From: an uncultured Rhodospirillales bacterium
GTDB taxonomy: Bacteria; Pseudomonadota; Alphaproteobacteria; CAAGCB01; CAG-977
NCBI GenBank assembly: GCA_902777205.1
Contig: CACYSU010000006.1
Location: 1 to 64,000 of the forward strand
Direction: 5' to 3'
Length of the DNA stretch: 64,000 nucleotides
The notes under the pieces were generated by a model. The model did no database searches and had not been told where the DNA came from. It was given only the letters and a program-made list of their open reading frames with translations. The translations under genes and the position numbers were made by a program. Below, piece after piece: positions 3,198 through 15,526 of this stretch; the first letter of the stretch is position 1; each line of letters opens with the position of its first letter.

Positions 3198-3227
3198 GGC
3201 GTGTCTCCTTATAATTTTATAATATAA

Positions 3228-3302
3228 TTAAAAACTTTCCGAAATCAAAAAGTTTTTTAGAAAAATCTTAAAAACTTGTCGAAAATGAAAAGTTTTTTAG
3301 AA
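3228..3302. repeat. Two tandem 35-bp palindromic repeats upstream of the ATPase gene
   Basis: Copies at 3228-3262 and 3268-3302 match at about 30 of 35 positions. Each has an internal inverted repeat, AAAAACTT near one end and AAAGTTTTTT near the other. A third half-site (AAAAACTT) follows at about 3311. The first copy lies about 30 bp upstream of the ATPase start and overlaps its AT-rich promoter region. They may be operators or hairpins. With only two copies and a 5-bp gap they are not a CRISPR array. Confidence 0.7.
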
Positions 3303-3386
3303 TTTCATATAAAAACTTCGTCATCCGGCGCGGGGCGCCTCGGCCGTTTGAAAAAGGTTGAAAAGCCGGCGGCGGGCGCGCGGGCT

Positions 3387-8132: not shown

Positions 8133-9509
8133 ATGACACGCAGCGAACGGCCGGATCTGGGCAACGACCCCGTCGGACGGCTTTTGTGGAAATTCGCGCT
8201 GCCCGCGGTCGTCGGGCTGATGATCAACGCGTCGTACAATCTGGTTGACCGCGTGTTCATCGGCAACGGCGTCGGATCGGCCGGATTGGCGGGCGTGGCC
8301 GTGTCCTTTCCGACGGCGATTTTGCAAATGGCGTTCGGGTTGATGATCGGCATCGGCGGCAGCGTCAATTTCGCGATCAGTCTGGGGCAGGGAAAGGTGC
8401 CGCGCGCGGAACGGTTTTTCACCGGCGCGGTCGAAATCATCGCCGCGATCGCCGTCGTTTTCTGCGCCGCGCATATGGTTTTCCTGAAACCGCTGCTGCG
8501 GCTGTACGGGGCGACGCCGACGATCATGCCCTATGCCGAAACGTATTTGAAAATCACGCTGTGCGGTTCCGTGTTCATGATGACGAACATGACGCTGAAC
8601 AACTTCATCCGCGCCAGCGGTTTTCCGCACATCGCGATGTTCACCATGCTGATCGGCGCGGTCGCCAACACGATTTTGGACGCGCTGTTCATCTTTGTTT
8701 TCCATTGGGGGATCGCGGGCGCGGCCTACGCGACGCTGGCGGCGCAGGCGGCGTCGTTTTGCTGGGCACTGTCGTTTTTCCTGTCGTCCAAAGCCCCCTA
8801 CCGTTTCCGCGCGAAATACGCCAGGCTGTCCCTGAAAATGGTGTCGGCGATCTGTTTTGTCGGCACGGCGCCCTTTATGATCCAGCTGGCGAACGGATTG
8901 ATGCAAACGATCATCAACAATTCGCTGGCTTTGTACGGCGGCGACGCGGCCGTGTCGGCCATGGGGGCGACGATCGCGGTGACGGTTTTGCTGTTCATGC
9001 CCGTCATCGGCCTGTGCGAAGGATCGCAGCCGGTTGTCAGCTTTAATCTGGGGGCGCGGAATTACGGCCGCGTTTTAAAGGTGTACCGGACGAACATCGC
9101 GGTATCGACGCTGTTTTTCATTGTCAGCTGCGCGATTTTGCAGCTGTTCGCGCCGCAAATCATCCGCGTTTTCAACAAAGGCGACGCGGAATTGATCCGG
9201 ATCGGCACGCATTCGCTGAAAATTATCGGGGCGATGTATCCGCTGGTCGGGCTGTCCGTCGCGACGACGTTTTTCCTGCAGGCGGTCAGAAGCCCGCGCA
9301 TGGCGGCGTTTCTGGCGCTCAGCCGCCAGCTGCTGTTCGTCATTCCGGGGATCGTCCTGCTGGGGCGGCGCATCGGGTTGAACGGCGTGTTTTACGCGTT
9401 TCCGCTGGCCGACGCCTTGGGTTTTCTGGTCGCGATTCCCGTCGCCGTCCACCTGTTCCGGAAATTCGGCGCGATGCACCGTTCGCAACAACAGGAAATC
9501 AGTCGCTGA
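8133..9509 (+). CDS. MATE-family multidrug/Na+ antiporter
   Basis: 458 aa, typical MATE length, with about 12 helices in two homologous halves. The N-terminal GRLLWKFALPAVVGLMI and DRVFIGNGVG segments and the second-half GANSYNVG-like NLGARNYGRV are characteristic. It exports cationic drugs or metabolites in exchange for Na+ or H+. An AGGGAAAGGG Shine-Dalgarno precedes the ATG. Its 3' end overlaps the converging phosphatase-like gene by 11 nt. The substrate cannot be read from the sequence. Confidence 0.88.
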   Translation: MTRSERPDLGNDPVGRLLWKFALPAVVGLMINASYNLVDRVFIGNGVGSAGLAGVAVSFPTAILQMAFGLMIGIGGSVNFAISLGQGKVPRAERFFTGAVEIIAAIAVVFCAAHMVFLKPLLRLYGATPTIMPYAETYLKITLCGSVFMMTNMTLNNFIRASGFPHIAMFTMLIGAVANTILDALFIFVFHWGIAGAAYATLAAQAASFCWALSFFLSSKAPYRFRAKYARLSLKMVSAICFVGTAPFMIQLANGLMQTIINNSLALYGGDAAVSAMGATIAVTVLLFMPVIGLCEGSQPVVSFNLGARNYGRVLKVYRTNIAVSTLFFIVSCAILQLFAPQIIRVFNKGDAELIRIGTHSLKIIGAMYPLVGLSVATTFFLQAVRSPRMAAFLALSRQLLFVIPGIVLLGRRIGLNGVFYAFPLADALGFLVAIPVAVHLFRKFGAMHRSQQQEISR

Positions 9510-10959
9510 CGGGTCTTGTCCCGTCCGGCGGCAATCCGGCCGCGGCCAGAATTTTGACAAACACGTCCGTTTGAGGGTAAACGCCGGCGAACGCGTCCGA
9601 TTTGACGCCCGCCGCGGAAACGGGGGTCGGAACGGCCGTCCGTCCCTGCGCCGCGTAACCGGTGCGCGCGCGGTCGTCCAAAATGCGCAGGACGGTCGCC
9701 TGCAGCGGGTCGAGCTTGCCGTATTTGCGCAGCAAAGCGTCGGTCTTGGGCTTGTCCGCCATACTGTGGCGGAACGCTTCGCGCAGCAGGGCGGTTTCCG
9801 CGCCCGTCAGGTCGGTTTCCAGCGTTTGCGCCGCCGTTTCGTCGCCGTTTTTGGCGGCTTCGGCCAATTCTTTTTTCTGTTCCCGCGTCAACAGGCGCAG
9901 GCCGAAGTTTTCCGTGATTTTCGGCATGAAGTTTTCCAGCGTCGCGCCCTCCGGACGACGGCGGCGGAACCGGTTGATCGCGGATTTAAAGGTGTCGATC
10001 GACACTTTCTGCGTTTTGAAAACGGCGGGCGAAACCGCACCGTCCGTTCCTAAAACCAACCCGCCCGCTTCCGCCGTTGAAGCGACGACGATCAGCGTGT
10101 CCTGCGGGTGCGCCGCGTAAAAATCGAACGCCTTTTTCACCGCCAGATCGAACGCGGCCGTTTCCGCGATCAATGCGGCCGTGTCGCGGTTTTCGGCGGC
10201 CAGCCCGATCTTTTCGCCGACCGCGACGATCAGGAAATCCCCGCCCTGCAGCTTTTCAACCGCTTTTTCGACGAACAAGGCCAAGTTCGGGGATTCCGCC
10301 TTCGCGTCCAAAGCGAACGGAACGTTTTTAAGGGCGGCGATCACTTTGCCGGACGGCATCTTTTCCCCCGCCGACACGCGGGAAACCATCCGGCGGCCGC
10401 TTTTTTTCAAAACGACATCCAAATCCTCTTTTTGAAAAGCCTTGCGCCGTTTGAAATCCTGCCCGATCAGCAGGGACAGGGGGCTGTCCTTCAGCTGGGC
10501 GGCGATGTCGTAGTAATTCTGCCGTTTTTCGCTGTGCGCGTAAAACGACGCGGCCGCCGCCGCGTCCAGCCCCGCGTCCGTCACCAACCCGACGGCGTAA
10601 CCGTTTTGCGCCATGATCGACGTGATCAGGGGCAGGGCGGGTTCTTCGCCGGAAATCATGGAAATCATACCCGCGCCCGTCGCTTTTCCGGTGGCCAGCG
10701 CGCCCGCCGCAGCCGCGTCCGCGACCGCGGGAACGGCCGTCCCCTGAACGGGCAGCGTGTCAACGAACAGGCCGCTTTCCCCCGCCATGGCGGTCAATCT
10801 GCGCTGGGCGTAGGATGCGCCGTCCGCGACGAATAAAAAGATGTGTCTGGCGACGGGGGCGGTTTTTTCACAGCCGGACAACGTCGCGGCGACGGCGGCG
10901 ACAACACACGGAAACAGCAGGGATTTTGCCTTTTTGGCCAAGAAAAGGAAAAGAAACAT
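9499..10959 (-). CDS. Alkaline-phosphatase-fold lipoprotein, probably inactive
   Basis: 486 aa. The N-terminal signal ends in lipobox LSGC (Cys30), so the mature protein is lipid-anchored. The body follows alkaline phosphatase from IFLFVADGAS (metal Asp46 kept) to the C-terminal DAFAGVYPQTDVFVKI. The active site is dismantled. The nucleophile motif D-S-A-A-S reads D81-A82-A-A-A-G, so Ser is Ala. The H-A-T-P metal motif reads LDAAAAA. RIDHAGH is replaced by KIGLAAE, ADH by AST, and the C-terminal HT motif by PT or RT. Overall length and fold are retained with no frameshift, which argues for selection as a pseudoenzyme and not decay. Its role is unknown. It is divergently transcribed from the TolC gene. 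Confidence 0.75.
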   Translation of the reverse strand: MFLFLFLAKKAKSLLFPCVVAAVAATLSGCEKTAPVARHIFLFVADGASYAQRRLTAMAGESGLFVDTLPVQGTAVPAVADAAAAGALATGKATGAGMISMISGEEPALPLITSIMAQNGYAVGLVTDAGLDAAAAASFYAHSEKRQNYYDIAAQLKDSPLSLLIGQDFKRRKAFQKEDLDVVLKKSGRRMVSRVSAGEKMPSGKVIAALKNVPFALDAKAESPNLALFVEKAVEKLQGGDFLIVAVGEKIGLAAENRDTAALIAETAAFDLAVKKAFDFYAAHPQDTLIVVASTAEAGGLVLGTDGAVSPAVFKTQKVSIDTFKSAINRFRRRRPEGATLENFMPKITENFGLRLLTREQKKELAEAAKNGDETAAQTLETDLTGAETALLREAFRHSMADKPKTDALLRKYGKLDPLQATVLRILDDRARTGYAAQGRTAVPTPVSAAGVKSDAFAGVYPQTDVFVKILAAAGLPPDGTRPVSD

Positions 10960-10996
10960 CGTTGACTCTGTATAATGGAATAAGATAACGTTGAAA

Positions 10997-12424
10997 ATGA
11001 TGCGTATTAAAAAAAACAGCCTGTGTCAAACAAAAAGATCGGCCTTTCCCCTTTTGACAAAAACAGCGGGAACGGGCGTTTTGGCGTTGACGCTTTTTTG
11101 CGTTCCGTCCGCGGCGCGGGCGGGCGGCGATCCGCTGTCGGCCGAACGGGCGGTGACGGCGCCGGCGTGTCGGGAAACGGCGCAAAACACCCCGCTGCGG
11201 TTGGGTGACGCGGTCAATCTGGCGCTGTGCCGCAATCCGGAAACGCGGCGGCTGTACATGGGGGTGATGGCCGCGGCCGCCGAATACGGGCAGGCGAAGG
11301 CCGATTACTGGCCGACCGTCGATCTGTCGGCGGGGGTGGCGCATTCCGGCCGCCACATCCGCGGCGGGGGCGAAACGGACGCTGACACGGCGACGGCGCG
11401 GCTGTCCGCGCAATGGCTGCTGTACGATTTCGGCGGGCGCGAAGCCGCGGCGCAATCCGCGCGCCAAGCTTTGGCCGCCGCGCTGGCGACGCGGTCGGAC
11501 GCGCTGCAGGGAATGATTTTCGACGTGGCCGAGGCGTACTATCTGGTGTTCGCCGCGCAGGCCGAACAAAAAAATTCGCGCGCGACGCTGGACGCCGCGC
11601 AGTCGGCCTATGACGCCGCCGCCAAACGCTACGATCTGGGGCTGGCCGCCCTGTCGGACAGGCTGCAGGCCGAAACGTCGCGGTCCGAAGCGCAGCTGAC
11701 GGTCGCCAAGGCGGACAGGGCTTTGGCCATCGCAAAGGGGAATTTGGCCGTTTTGATGAACTATTCCCCCGATTACGATCCGGAATTGGCGTCGGAAGAG
11801 CTGCCCGCCGGTTTTTCGGATATGCCGGACGACATCGACGCTTTGTTCAAAACGGCGCTGAACCGCCGCGCGGACATCGCGGCGCAAAAGGCCGCCGTCG
11901 AACAGGCGCGTTCCGATATCGCCGTGCAGGAATCGAAAAACGCGCCGTCCCTTTCCCTGTCGGCCGGATTGGGCGCGGACAAGGAATTGACGCGCGACAA
12001 AACGCGCGCGCGTTCCGACAATATCGGGGTGTCGCTGACCGTTCCTTTGTTTACGGGGTTCAAAAACACCTACCGGATCAATCAGGCGCGCTATCGGCTG
12101 GAACAAAGCGAAGCGGCGCTGAAAAAGCTGGAAAGCAATGTGAAAAACGAGGTCTGGACAACCTACCAGAACTTTTTCACCGCGAAAAAAACGTACGAGA
12201 TTTCTCAAACCATGCTGGCGTCGGCCGACCAGAACGCGCAGGTCGCGCTGGGGGCGTACAAGGCGGGGCGCGGCAGCATCCTGAACGTTTTGGACGCGCA
12301 ATCGAAACTGGCGGACGCGCGGACGACGAACAGCCGGTCGCTTTACGAACTGCTGATCGCCAGAACAAACATCGTCAGAAAAATCGGGCTGATCGACCCG
12401 TTCAAAGCCGGAAAAGGATTTTAA
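10997..12424 (+). CDS. TolC-family outer-membrane efflux protein
   Basis: About 475 aa. The Sec signal peptide has a hydrophobic core GVLALTLFCVPSAARA ending near residue 40. Two outer-membrane efflux repeats follow (LRLGDAVNLALCRNPE at the start of the first) with long coiled-coil helices. It forms the outer-membrane duct for the adaptor and ABC proteins encoded directly downstream. The start is uncertain: ATG 10997 or 11000, or TTG 10991; none has a strong Shine-Dalgarno. A TATAAT at 10971-10976 serves as -10. MacA begins 3 bases after the stop. Confidence 0.88.
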   Translation: MMRIKKNSLCQTKRSAFPLLTKTAGTGVLALTLFCVPSAARAGGDPLSAERAVTAPACRETAQNTPLRLGDAVNLALCRNPETRRLYMGVMAAAAEYGQAKADYWPTVDLSAGVAHSGRHIRGGGETDADTATARLSAQWLLYDFGGREAAAQSARQALAAALATRSDALQGMIFDVAEAYYLVFAAQAEQKNSRATLDAAQSAYDAAAKRYDLGLAALSDRLQAETSRSEAQLTVAKADRALAIAKGNLAVLMNYSPDYDPELASEELPAGFSDMPDDIDALFKTALNRRADIAAQKAAVEQARSDIAVQESKNAPSLSLSAGLGADKELTRDKTRARSDNIGVSLTVPLFTGFKNTYRINQARYRLEQSEAALKKLESNVKNEVWTTYQNFFTAKKTYEISQTMLASADQNAQVALGAYKAGRGSILNVLDAQSKLADARTTNSRSLYELLIARTNIVRKIGLIDPFKAGKGF

Positions 12425-12427
12425 CCG

Positions 12428-13576
12428 ATGAAAAAGACTTTGATCATTTTAATCGTTTTGGCTCTGGCGGCCGGCGGGTTTCTGTATTACCGCCACGCGA
12501 CGAAACCGGCGGCGGCCGTTTACGACACGACGACCGTGACCAAGGGCGACATCCGCGTTGACGTTTCCGCGACCGGCACGATCCAGCCCGTCAACATTGT
12601 CAGCGTCGGCACGCAGGTGTCCGGCATCATCGAAAAGGTTTACGTCGATTACAACGACGCCGTCAAAAAGGGCGATTTGATCGCGCAGCTGGAAACCTTT
12701 ACGCTGGAAGAGGATTTGAAAGAGGCGCGCGCCGCCGTCACCGACGCCAAAGCGCGGCTGGATTACGCCCGATTGAACGCCAAACGCAACCGCGAACTGT
12801 TCAAACAGAATTTCATCGCCCGCTATGAATCCGAAGAGGCCGATCTGGCCGCCGTGAACGCGCAGTCCGCGTATGACAAGGCCGTCGCCCAGGAACGCAA
12901 GGCGAAACGCAATCTGGGCTATGCGAACATCGTTTCCCCCGTTGACGGCATCATCGTCACCCGCGTGGTCGAGGAAGGCCAGACCGTCGCGTCGTCGTTC
13001 CAAACGCCGGAGCTGTTCACGATCGCCGAGGATTTGACGAAAATGCAGATCGAAGCCCAGATTTCCGAAGCCGACATCGGCCAGATCAAACAGGGGCTGC
13101 CGGTCGATTTCACCGTTGACACGTTTCCGTCCGACACGTTCAAAGGCACGGTGTCCCAAGTTCGCCTGCAGCCGACGGAGGATTCCAAGGTCGTCATGTA
13201 CACGGTCGTCATTTCCATTTCCAACGACGATCTGCGCTTGCTGCCCGGCATGACGGCGTATGTCACGATCACGGTTCAGGAAAAGCGCGACACCTTGAAA
13301 TTGCAGAATATGGCGTTCCAATTCCGTCCCTCGGAAAAGGGCGTCAAAACCAAAAAGAAAGGCAACCGCCGGTCGAACGAGGAACGGCGCCGCATCATCC
13401 GCGAACGCAAATCCTTGAAACCCGATCAGGCGATCGTGTATGTGCTGGAAAACGGCGCGCCCGCCGCCCGCACCGTGACCAAAGGCATTTCCAACCTGCT
13501 GGACACGGAGATACTGGACGGGTTGAAAGAGGGCGACAAAGTCGTTTTAGAGGATTTGTCGGACAATCCGGCCTGA
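12428..13576 (+). CDS. macA: MacA-like periplasmic adaptor of an ABC exporter
   Basis: 382 aa. It has one N-terminal membrane anchor (about residues 4-22), a lipoyl/barrel-sandwich half (VSVGTQVSGIIEKVYVDYNDAVKKGD), a coiled-coil hairpin (about 95-170), the second lipoyl half (SPVDGIIVTRVVEEGQTV), a beta-barrel and a membrane-proximal domain. This is the MacA/HlyD order. A basic insert, VKTKKKGNRRSNEERRR, near residue 300 is unusual for MacA and interrupts the membrane-proximal region. It links the inner-membrane ABC complex to the TolC-like duct. Confidence 0.88.
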   Translation: MKKTLIILIVLALAAGGFLYYRHATKPAAAVYDTTTVTKGDIRVDVSATGTIQPVNIVSVGTQVSGIIEKVYVDYNDAVKKGDLIAQLETFTLEEDLKEARAAVTDAKARLDYARLNAKRNRELFKQNFIARYESEEADLAAVNAQSAYDKAVAQERKAKRNLGYANIVSPVDGIIVTRVVEEGQTVASSFQTPELFTIAEDLTKMQIEAQISEADIGQIKQGLPVDFTVDTFPSDTFKGTVSQVRLQPTEDSKVVMYTVVISISNDDLRLLPGMTAYVTITVQEKRDTLKLQNMAFQFRPSEKGVKTKKKGNRRSNEERRRIIRERKSLKPDQAIVYVLENGAPAARTVTKGISNLLDTEILDGLKEGDKVVLEDLSDNPA

Positions 13577-13592
13577 ACGGGGATCGCGCGCC

Positions 13593-14312
13593 ATGCCTGA
13601 AAAAGTCATTGAAATCAAAGACGTGTGCAAAACCTACTTTATGGCCGGCGGCATGAAGCAGGACGTGCTGAAACACGTCGATATGACGGTGGAACGCGGC
13701 GAATTCGTCGCGATCATGGGGCCGTCCGGCGCGGGCAAATCCACGTTTATGAACATTCTGGGGTGTCTCGACCGGCCGACAAGCGGGACTTACATCCTTG
13801 GCGGCAAAGAGGTTTCCGCCATGACCGACGCGGAGCTGGCGCGCATCCGCAACCGGATGATCGGGTTCGTTTTCCAAGGGTTCAACCTGTTGATGCGCCG
13901 CACGCTGACGGACAACGTCGCGCTGCCCCTGATTTACGCCGACGACACGGACAAGGCCGGACGGATCAAACGCGCCGTCGAAAAGCTGGAGCTGGTCGGG
14001 CTGCGCGGATTTACCGACCGCTATCCCAACCAGATATCCGGCGGAATGCAGCAGCGCGTCGCCATCGCGCGGGCGTTGATCAACGCGCCGGAAATGATTT
14101 TGGCCGACGAACCGACCGGCAATCTGGACAGCAAAACCAGCGACGAAATCATGCTGTTTTTGCAGCAGCTGAACCGTGACCGCGGCATTACGATCGTGCT
14201 GGTCACCCACGAACCCGACATCGCCGCCTATGCCAAGCGGCTGGTCAGAATCGTTGACGGCCGGATCGCTTACGACGGGGATGTCAAAGCTTATATGGAA
14301 CAGCAGAAATGA
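13593..14312 (+). CDS. MacB/LolD-type ABC transporter ATPase
   Basis: 239 aa. Walker A GPSGAGKS (about 41-48), the Q-loop in FVFQGFNLL, signature SGGMQQR, Walker B MILADEPTGNLD and the H-loop VTHE are all intact. It belongs to the MacB/LolD/FtsE group that powers mechanotransmission-type exporters. In this operon the ATPase and permease are separate genes (as in YknY/YknZ), whereas E. coli MacB is one fused chain. The stop overlaps the permease ATG (ATGA). Confidence 0.9.
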   Translation: MPEKVIEIKDVCKTYFMAGGMKQDVLKHVDMTVERGEFVAIMGPSGAGKSTFMNILGCLDRPTSGTYILGGKEVSAMTDAELARIRNRMIGFVFQGFNLLMRRTLTDNVALPLIYADDTDKAGRIKRAVEKLELVGLRGFTDRYPNQISGGMQQRVAIARALINAPEMILADEPTGNLDSKTSDEIMLFLQQLNRDRGITIVLVTHEPDIAAYAKRLVRIVDGRIAYDGDVKAYMEQQK

Positions 14313-15526
14313 TGATCGGATCCGTTTTTCACGAGGCCTGCCTGTCCATGACGGGAAACAAACTCCGGTCGTTTTTGACGACGTTGGGGATCATCATCGG
14401 CGTGTGCGCCGTCGTGATGATGGTCGCCGCCGGCCAAACGGTGCAGAACATCATTCAGGAACGGTTCGTCGCAATGGGGGCGAACCTGCTGATCATCCAT
14501 TCCCAACGCCCCAAAGCGGCCGTCCGAACGTCGGGGCCCATGACCTCAATCACTTTGGACGACGCGCTGGCCATGAAAAAACTGCGCGGCATGGATGTCG
14601 TCGCGCCCGTCCTGCAAACCAGCCGGCAAGCCATCAACGGCCCCAACAACTGGAGCGTTTCAATCATCGGCACGACGCCGGATTATTTGAAAACGGCCAA
14701 CTGGGAAATCGCCGCCGGCCGCGGATTGGACGATCAGGATATCAGACGCGGGACGACGAACGTCGTCATCGGCGCCGAAGTCGTTTCCGAACTCTATCCC
14801 TACGAAGACCCGCTGGGCAAAACGATCCGCATCGGCAACCAGCCGTTCAATATCGTCGGCGTTTTAAAGGAAAAAGGGTCGAATTCCGGCGGCGCGAATC
14901 AGGATTCGTCCGTGATGATGCCGCTTTTGACCGTCCAGCGCCGGTTCAACCGGTACGCCAAACTGAACGCCGTCAACCATATCGCCGTCAAATTTTCGGA
15001 AACGGAAAATCTGAACGTCGTCGAACGGCGCATTTCGCGCTTTTTGCGTGCCCGCCATAAAATCAAGGACGAAGACCCCGACGATTTCCGCATTTTCAAC
15101 ATCGCCGAATTTGTTGAAAACATCCGGCTGGTCGGCACGGTGCTGTCGGTTTTGCTGGCGGCGATCGCGTCCATTTCACTGGTCGTCGGGGCGATCGGCA
15201 TTGTGAACATGATGCTGGTTTCCGTGACCGAACGCACGCGCGAAATCGGCATCCGCAAAGCTTTGGGCGCGCCGAATGGGTGGATCATGCTGCAATTTTT
15301 GTTTGAAGCGGTTCTGATCTCCATGGTCGGCGGCACGATCGGGCTGGTTTTGGGGATCGGATTGTCGCAGCTGGGCGGGTATTGGTACGATGTCCGCGTT
15401 CCGTTCAGCCTGTGGCCGGTGGCGCTGTCGTTTACGGTCGCGCTGGTCGTCGGCGTCGTTTCCGGCGTCTTTCCGGCCTATAAGGCGATGAAGCTGGATC
15501 CGATCGAAGCCCTGCGGTATCAGTAA
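14309..15526 (+). CDS. MacB-type ABC transporter permease
   Basis: 405 aa. An N-terminal membrane helix (LRSFLTTLGIIIGVCAVVMM) is followed by a large periplasmic MacB_PCD domain (about 50-270) and three C-terminal FtsX-type helices with the conserved GIRKALGAP and the ending KAMKLDPIEALRYQ. With the ATPase, MacA and TolC genes it completes a tripartite exporter, probably for a peptide, lipid or drug. A strong bidirectional terminator follows 25 bases after the stop. Confidence 0.9.
   Translation: MMIGSVFHEACLSMTGNKLRSFLTTLGIIIGVCAVVMMVAAGQTVQNIIQERFVAMGANLLIIHSQRPKAAVRTSGPMTSITLDDALAMKKLRGMDVVAPVLQTSRQAINGPNNWSVSIIGTTPDYLKTANWEIAAGRGLDDQDIRRGTTNVVIGAEVVSELYPYEDPLGKTIRIGNQPFNIVGVLKEKGSNSGGANQDSSVMMPLLTVQRRFNRYAKLNAVNHIAVKFSETENLNVVERRISRFLRARHKIKDEDPDDFRIFNIAEFVENIRLVGTVLSVLLAAIASISLVVGAIGIVNMMLVSVTERTREIGIRKALGAPNGWIMLQFLFEAVLISMVGGTIGLVLGIGLSQLGGYWYDVRVPFSLWPVALSFTVALVVGVVSGVFPAYKAMKLDPIEALRYQ

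Follow-up and report, generated by a model that had tools for sequence, protein, structure and literature searches.

Few metalloenzymes are as well studied as alkaline phosphatase (AP), which has been mutated residue by residue in the laboratory. The window analysed here, a stretch of 64,000 nucleotides from an uncultured Rhodospirillales bacterium (assembly GCA_902777205.1, contig CACYSU010000006.1), raises the question of what has become of an AP whose active site is gone almost altogether: is the gene decaying, does it still encode an enzyme of another kind, or has the protein been kept for work that needs no catalysis? A first-pass annotation, made from the letters alone, had favoured the last of these.

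The reading frame had been described as intact and of AP type from end to end, and this holds. It begins with ATG, runs over 486 residues with no internal stop, and has PF00245 as its sole Pfam match (1.2e-18; 67.7 bits against a cut-off of 24.4). In the assembly (1.94 Mb in 34 contigs), a whole-genome search finds this one PF00245 locus, matched in two pieces (profile positions 57–158 and 225–421). The signal peptide carries the lipobox cysteine that marks a bacterial lipoprotein, recognised by eye, and this Cys30 is invariant in 5/5 orthologues. The protein had been placed at the cell surface; attachment to the outer membrane on its periplasmic side is an equally likely location. Between 9300 and 11200, a promoter scan gave no sigma-70-type match, and terminator-like sites were no more frequent than in shuffled sequence. 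Elsewhere in the window, a tandem repeat (3215–3318; 40 bases, 2.6 copies) is A+T-rich within a G+C-rich genome.

Features of the AP-type gene and its surroundings (window positions unless another locus is named; residue equivalences in E. coli PhoA numbering)
Feature	Position	Strand	Basis or remark
CDS, pseudo-alkaline phosphatase lipoprotein, 486 aa	9499..10959	-	ORF, Pfam, GC3
Signal peptide and lipobox L-S-G-C (residues 27–30, Cys30)	10870..10959	-	by eye
Asp46, equivalent to D51, sole metal ligand retained	10822..10824	-	alignment
Asp81-Ala82, nucleophile position	10714..10719	-	alignment, ambiguous by one residue
Residues 133–135 (A-A-A), replacing the D-A-T motif (D153, T155)	10555..10563	-	alignment
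Arg146, equivalent to R166, which grips phosphate; the other three pseudoenzymes have Lys	10522..10524	-	alignment
Residues 247–256 (V247, G252, E256), replacing E322, D327, H331	10192..10221	-	alignment
Thr295-Ala296, replacing D369-H370	10072..10077	-	alignment
Helical insert, residues 306–432	9664..10044	-	common to the active-type orthologue
Arg440, replacing H412; Gln in the other three	9640..9642	-	alignment
Convergent MATE transporter, overlapping the AP stop by 11 bases	8133..9509	+	synteny anchor
TolC-MacA-MacB genes, divergent	10991..15526	+	synteny anchor
AP/MATE overlaps	window 9499-9509; L072 9014-9042; L071 7846-7913; L073 7030-7157

The catalytic and metal-binding residues were read from the columns of an eight-sequence MAFFT alignment, to which the E. 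coli PhoA numbering was applied; the ligands are D51, D327, H331, D369, H370 and H412 for Zn1/Zn2, and D51, D153, T155 and E322 for Mg. In the window protein, D153, T155, E322, D327, H331, D369, H370 and H412 are replaced by A133, A135, V247, G252, E256, T295, A296 and R440, respectively, which leaves a single one of the nine ligand residues, D51 (D46), together with R166 (R146). The alignment bears out the earlier description of nearly every metal-binding motif as replaced. The accompanying claim that the nucleophile has become Ala82 stands in part: no Ser or Thr occupies this position, and the residue found there is Asp81 or Ala82. Compared with its relatives, the protein lacks one residue in the interval from Asp81 to the conserved G-A-L-A-T-G, and this shortfall leaves the D101/S102 pair ambiguous; an ungapped phmmer match to 3a52 puts Asp81 in the nucleophile column, MAFFT a gap, and neither gives Ser or Thr. 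In sum, descent places the window protein in PF00245, as the profile match and the fold described below both indicate, but its residues are not those of a catalytic AP. Judged from these residues, it would have neither phosphatase activity nor bound Zn.

A search for orthologues with the same substitutions had been proposed, and it proved informative. Of 61 genomes searched at the protein level, 7 gave a match, full-length in the window genome, in three relatives of the same genus (G002, G003 and G004; 54–55 percent identity to the window protein) and in one genome of a sister genus in the same family (G008; 43–45 percent). In the three in-genus orthologues, the same centre is destroyed at the same genomic place. 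They retain D51 and D101, and one of the three retains D153, while T, T and N are found at the nucleophile position; at the remaining sites the replacements are T155V, R166K, E322I/V, D327N, H331G/E/Q, D369T, H370V and H412Q. Six of these replacements (T155V, R166K, D327N, D369T, H370V and H412Q) are the same in all three species. The four pseudoenzymes are mutually 53–68 percent identical, and 4/4 remain positively charged at R166. An alternative intact metal site, which would have spoken against the pseudoenzyme reading, is rejected: one His, H142, is invariant among the four, and it corresponds to Arg in the active-type orthologue. More broadly, no combination of His, Asp and Glu common to all four could rebuild such a site.

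In contrast, the orthologue of G008 (L025/L007) is canonical at 12/12 catalytic and metal sites, including a Ser nucleophile, and shares with the window protein its neighbourhood, the lipobox Cys and the helical insert; it likely represents the ancestral state. Compared with PhoA-type APs (PF00245; Shewanella 3a52, TAB5 2iuc/2w5v, Vibrio 3e2d), the fold and domain order of the window protein are the same, the nucleophile and the eight ligands listed above are replaced, and the lipobox and the insert of about 120 residues are additions. The insert is also partly present in L027, and within its segment 321–360, 20/40 positions are invariant across the four pseudoenzymes. The AP-type proteins of G002 and G004 end in Pro/Thr/Ser-rich C-terminal tails.

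The loss of the centre is unusual among AP homologues. We surveyed 385 genomes of the class (25 with a match; those matches having a locus were evaluated) and 398 of the phylum (91 with a match; 50 loci evaluated, 20 of them hand-picked to include the weakest). In a table of class-survey loci and a distant set, from which seven duplicate sequences were removed, 28/28 homologues from outside the clade retain every covered ligand among E322, D327, H331, D369, H370 and H412, and 27/27 covering the nucleophile retain its Ser, the remaining sequence being partial. Similarly, 51/60 pieces of the phylum survey have all eight sites examined. Another eight are gapped only, being truncated by the locus end or having an unaligned C-terminus, and one (L136) is a different enzyme, similar in appearance to a phosphoglycerate mutase. 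The class-level and phylum sets overlap and sample the homologues without amounting to a census. The evaluated loci of the two surveys thus hold no second pseudo-AP, and we recognised no natural inactive AP homologue in the open-licence literature, which is weak evidence of absence. At D101, two Bacteroidetes APs (L026 2345–3559 and L028 5932–7146) carry Cys, with the nucleophile Ser and metal ligands intact, and one viral AP homologue carries Glu.

The gene sits in a fixed place. The order MATE-AP-TolC-MacA-MacB is found in 5/5 carriers, and MATE adjoins TolC with no AP gene between them in G001, G005 and G006 of the genus, and in G007 and G011 of the family; G009 and G010 are uninformative in this comparison, and the pump genes of G006 were followed up to the contig end. 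The gene is thus missing from 3/7 genus members. The MATE–TolC gaps of the five non-carriers measure 302, 112, 150, 117 and 36 bases, and a permissive tblastn over these loci revealed no reading-frame remnants in them, the hits being weak throughout (best 0.009, outside the gap). The tree built from five neighbour proteins places G001 with G002/G004 (100) and G005/G006 with G003 (100), the placement of the window genome being weakly supported (64); if inheritance was vertical, this grouping requires at least two losses within the genus. A stretch upstream of the AP-type gene aligns between the non-carrier G005 and its close carrier G003 with a score of 78, against a shuffle maximum of 38; other pairs are weaker, and 3/12 are no better than shuffles. 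This stretch could equally persist in G005 as a promoter region of TolC.

In the 5' region (window 10960–11040), we note a stretch that all four genomes with the pseudoenzyme have conserved, with TTTGACA ... AATACG and a box directly preceding the start codon; its spacer is shorter in the window, and part of it persists in G005. The tail-to-tail overlap of the AP-type and MATE genes also varies by species (11, 29, 68 and 128 bases), and G008 has none. A chance frame or an assembly error is rejected, as other MAGs, each assembled separately, carry the orthologues intact, and a recent foreign origin is not supported, since GC3 (0.77) is like that of the neighbour genes (0.76–0.82) and the position is common to two genera.

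A dN/dS estimate had likewise been recommended. Pairwise omega among G002, G003 and G004 is 0.09, 0.10 and 0.11, with lnL gains of 120–132 over omega=1; dS is saturated in these codon models, which makes the absolute omega unreliable and the rejection of neutrality the usable result. The remaining pairs are more saturated, and comparisons with the outgroup yield meaningless dS. A segment-wise comparison rejects omega=1 for the mature protein in these pairs (gains of 16–50) and does not reject it for the signal peptide, as expected of an internal control. In neutral simulations, the frame stayed open in 1/300 runs at 0.1 changes per site and in 0/300 at each of 0.3, 0.5, 1 and 2. Given that simulated frames close while those of the pseudoenzymes are 4/4 open, neutral drift would not leave such copies. 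Frameshifted orthologues, named earlier as the sign of plain decay, are not seen among the carriers; a single TAG in G003 falls where the profile match overruns the end of the ORF. These comparisons strongly suggest that purifying selection on the mature protein is strong. Two marks of a functional pseudoenzyme, an intact frame and purifying selection across species, are found here, with an omega of about 0.1 at saturated dS, and the pattern proposed earlier, in which chemistry is lost but fold, frame and lipobox stay, extends to four species. The AP-type protein nonetheless evolves faster than its neighbours: the tree distance between G002 and G004 is 0.60, compared with 0.16 for the five concatenated neighbours.

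Structure prediction agrees with the suggested superposition on PhoA-type enzymes, more convincingly for an orthologue than for the window protein itself. The window model has a pLDDT of 60.8, is poor at residues 78–110 and 129–224, and gives against AP chains a best Z of 27.8 (3a52, 313 residues), a weak model on which to judge. The G003 orthologue, which also lacks the centre, is modelled at a pLDDT of 83.8 and a pTM of 0.86, and superposes on TAB5 AP 2w5v with Z 44.5 and an rmsd of 2.2 over 330 residues; its helix 86–95 begins at T86, the nucleophile position. Scans of viral contigs for deeper folding alignments added one distant relative. The models thus predict a retained AP fold with confidence for the orthologue and less firmly for the window protein.

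We consider it probable that these are true pseudoenzymes, metal-free lipoproteins of the cell envelope in which the AP fold is kept for binding or scaffolding. The absence of the gene from three genus members and the fast pace of the protein count against this, and both would fit a slow decay, in which a phosphatase useless in a phosphate-rich gut erodes under relaxed selection and is deleted in several sisters. The deletions are clean, extending to G007 and G011, and Pho-type genes over the cut-off are found in 0/12 family genomes, as decay would also have it. However, eroding copies are hard to reconcile with frames that remain open in 4/4 survivors at such divergence, with the low omega, with six identical replacement residues in three species and with a lipobox Cys retained in all, and we regard decay as unlikely.

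The genomic setting suggests a link to the adjacent pump. Since the AP-type gene lies head to head with tolC-macAB in 5/5 carriers, its product could be an accessory of the divergent TolC-MacAB system, for example a periplasmic scaffold on the outer-membrane part, which would be a special case of the pseudoenzyme reading. Yet the pump genes are present in five genomes that have no AP gene, so the AP-type protein cannot be required for the pump, and the active-type orthologue has the same neighbour; we think a pump accessory improbable. Less probable still, and very unlikely, is an enzyme that uses a changed mechanism (a Thr nucleophile, or a site that is metal-free or has migrated) on a different substrate. 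Two orthologues with Thr as the residue in the nucleophile column, and the retained D51 and positive charge at R166, would suit it, but the nucleophile position varies within the clade (T, T, N, and D or A), the invariant residues could not rebuild a bimetal site, and the substitutions in the pocket are largely hydrophobic or neutral. In fact, E322V/I, H370V/A, T155V/A, D369T and D327N/G answer to the needs of a stable fold without metals.

Under the favoured pseudoenzyme reading, the ancestor would have been a PhoA-type AP lipoprotein, whose full set of catalytic residues persists in the sister genus. The catalytic residues and the Zn/Mg centre would have been lost before the sampled carriers of the genus diverged, and the protein would since have been maintained as a metal-free AP fold, lipid-anchored in the cell envelope. 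Its selected role may then be non-catalytic, namely to bind some periplasmic ligand or partner. Because none of the four has lost its positive charge at R166, the ligand could be anionic.

Phosphatase folds without catalytic residues are likewise described for STYX, MK-STYX and MTMR13, which differ in being eukaryotic; according to excerpts of a review (PMC10211241), the majority of human pseudophosphatases belong to the Cys-based class, and the term "alkaline phosphatase" is absent from that review. Closer parallels are found among laboratory mutants of E. coli AP, since PDB titles list S102T, T155V, H331Q, H412Q and D153G, the same substitutions as in the clade, and T155V (3bdf) is metal-free according to its title. 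The mutants carry one or few changes made by hand, whereas the clade stacks them in natural proteins. It is thus a natural counterpart of the AP mutants, one gene in one fixed place with the centre whole in one genus and missing from its sister, and it allows us to ask what use the AP fold has without metals and in which order a bimetal site is dismantled. It also allows us to ask whether such enzymes become available for other tasks once phosphate scavenging is lost in a phosphate-rich gut.

Of the four named relatives with the gene, all of them Alphaproteobacteria MAGs, one comes from roe deer rumen, and a ruminant-gut origin may hold for the whole genus. Rumen phosphate comes from saliva. 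Over the cut-off, the 12 family genomes (G000–G011) contain neither PhoX nor PhoD (0/12 each), and no PstS-type protein (0/12, with one weak match in G011; 13/14 control genomes were positive). This is consistent with phosphate scavenging being unimportant in the family, and raises the question of its phosphate uptake route; together with the rumen-derived relative, it would make a loss of scavenging chemistry plausible. Tentatively, the replacement of the bimetal centre in the carriers of the genus could then mark a change of function, from an enzyme that scavenges phosphate to a metal-free binding protein of the envelope whose ligands might be phosphorylated or otherwise anionic, in gut bacteria with no detected PhoX, PhoD or PstS-type protein; we regard this as possible rather than probable. 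We also observe that G003 has a second, short AP with canonical residues (L010 1042–1899, 285 aa), and that similar proteins are encoded in other Alphaproteobacteria (L076 and L078).
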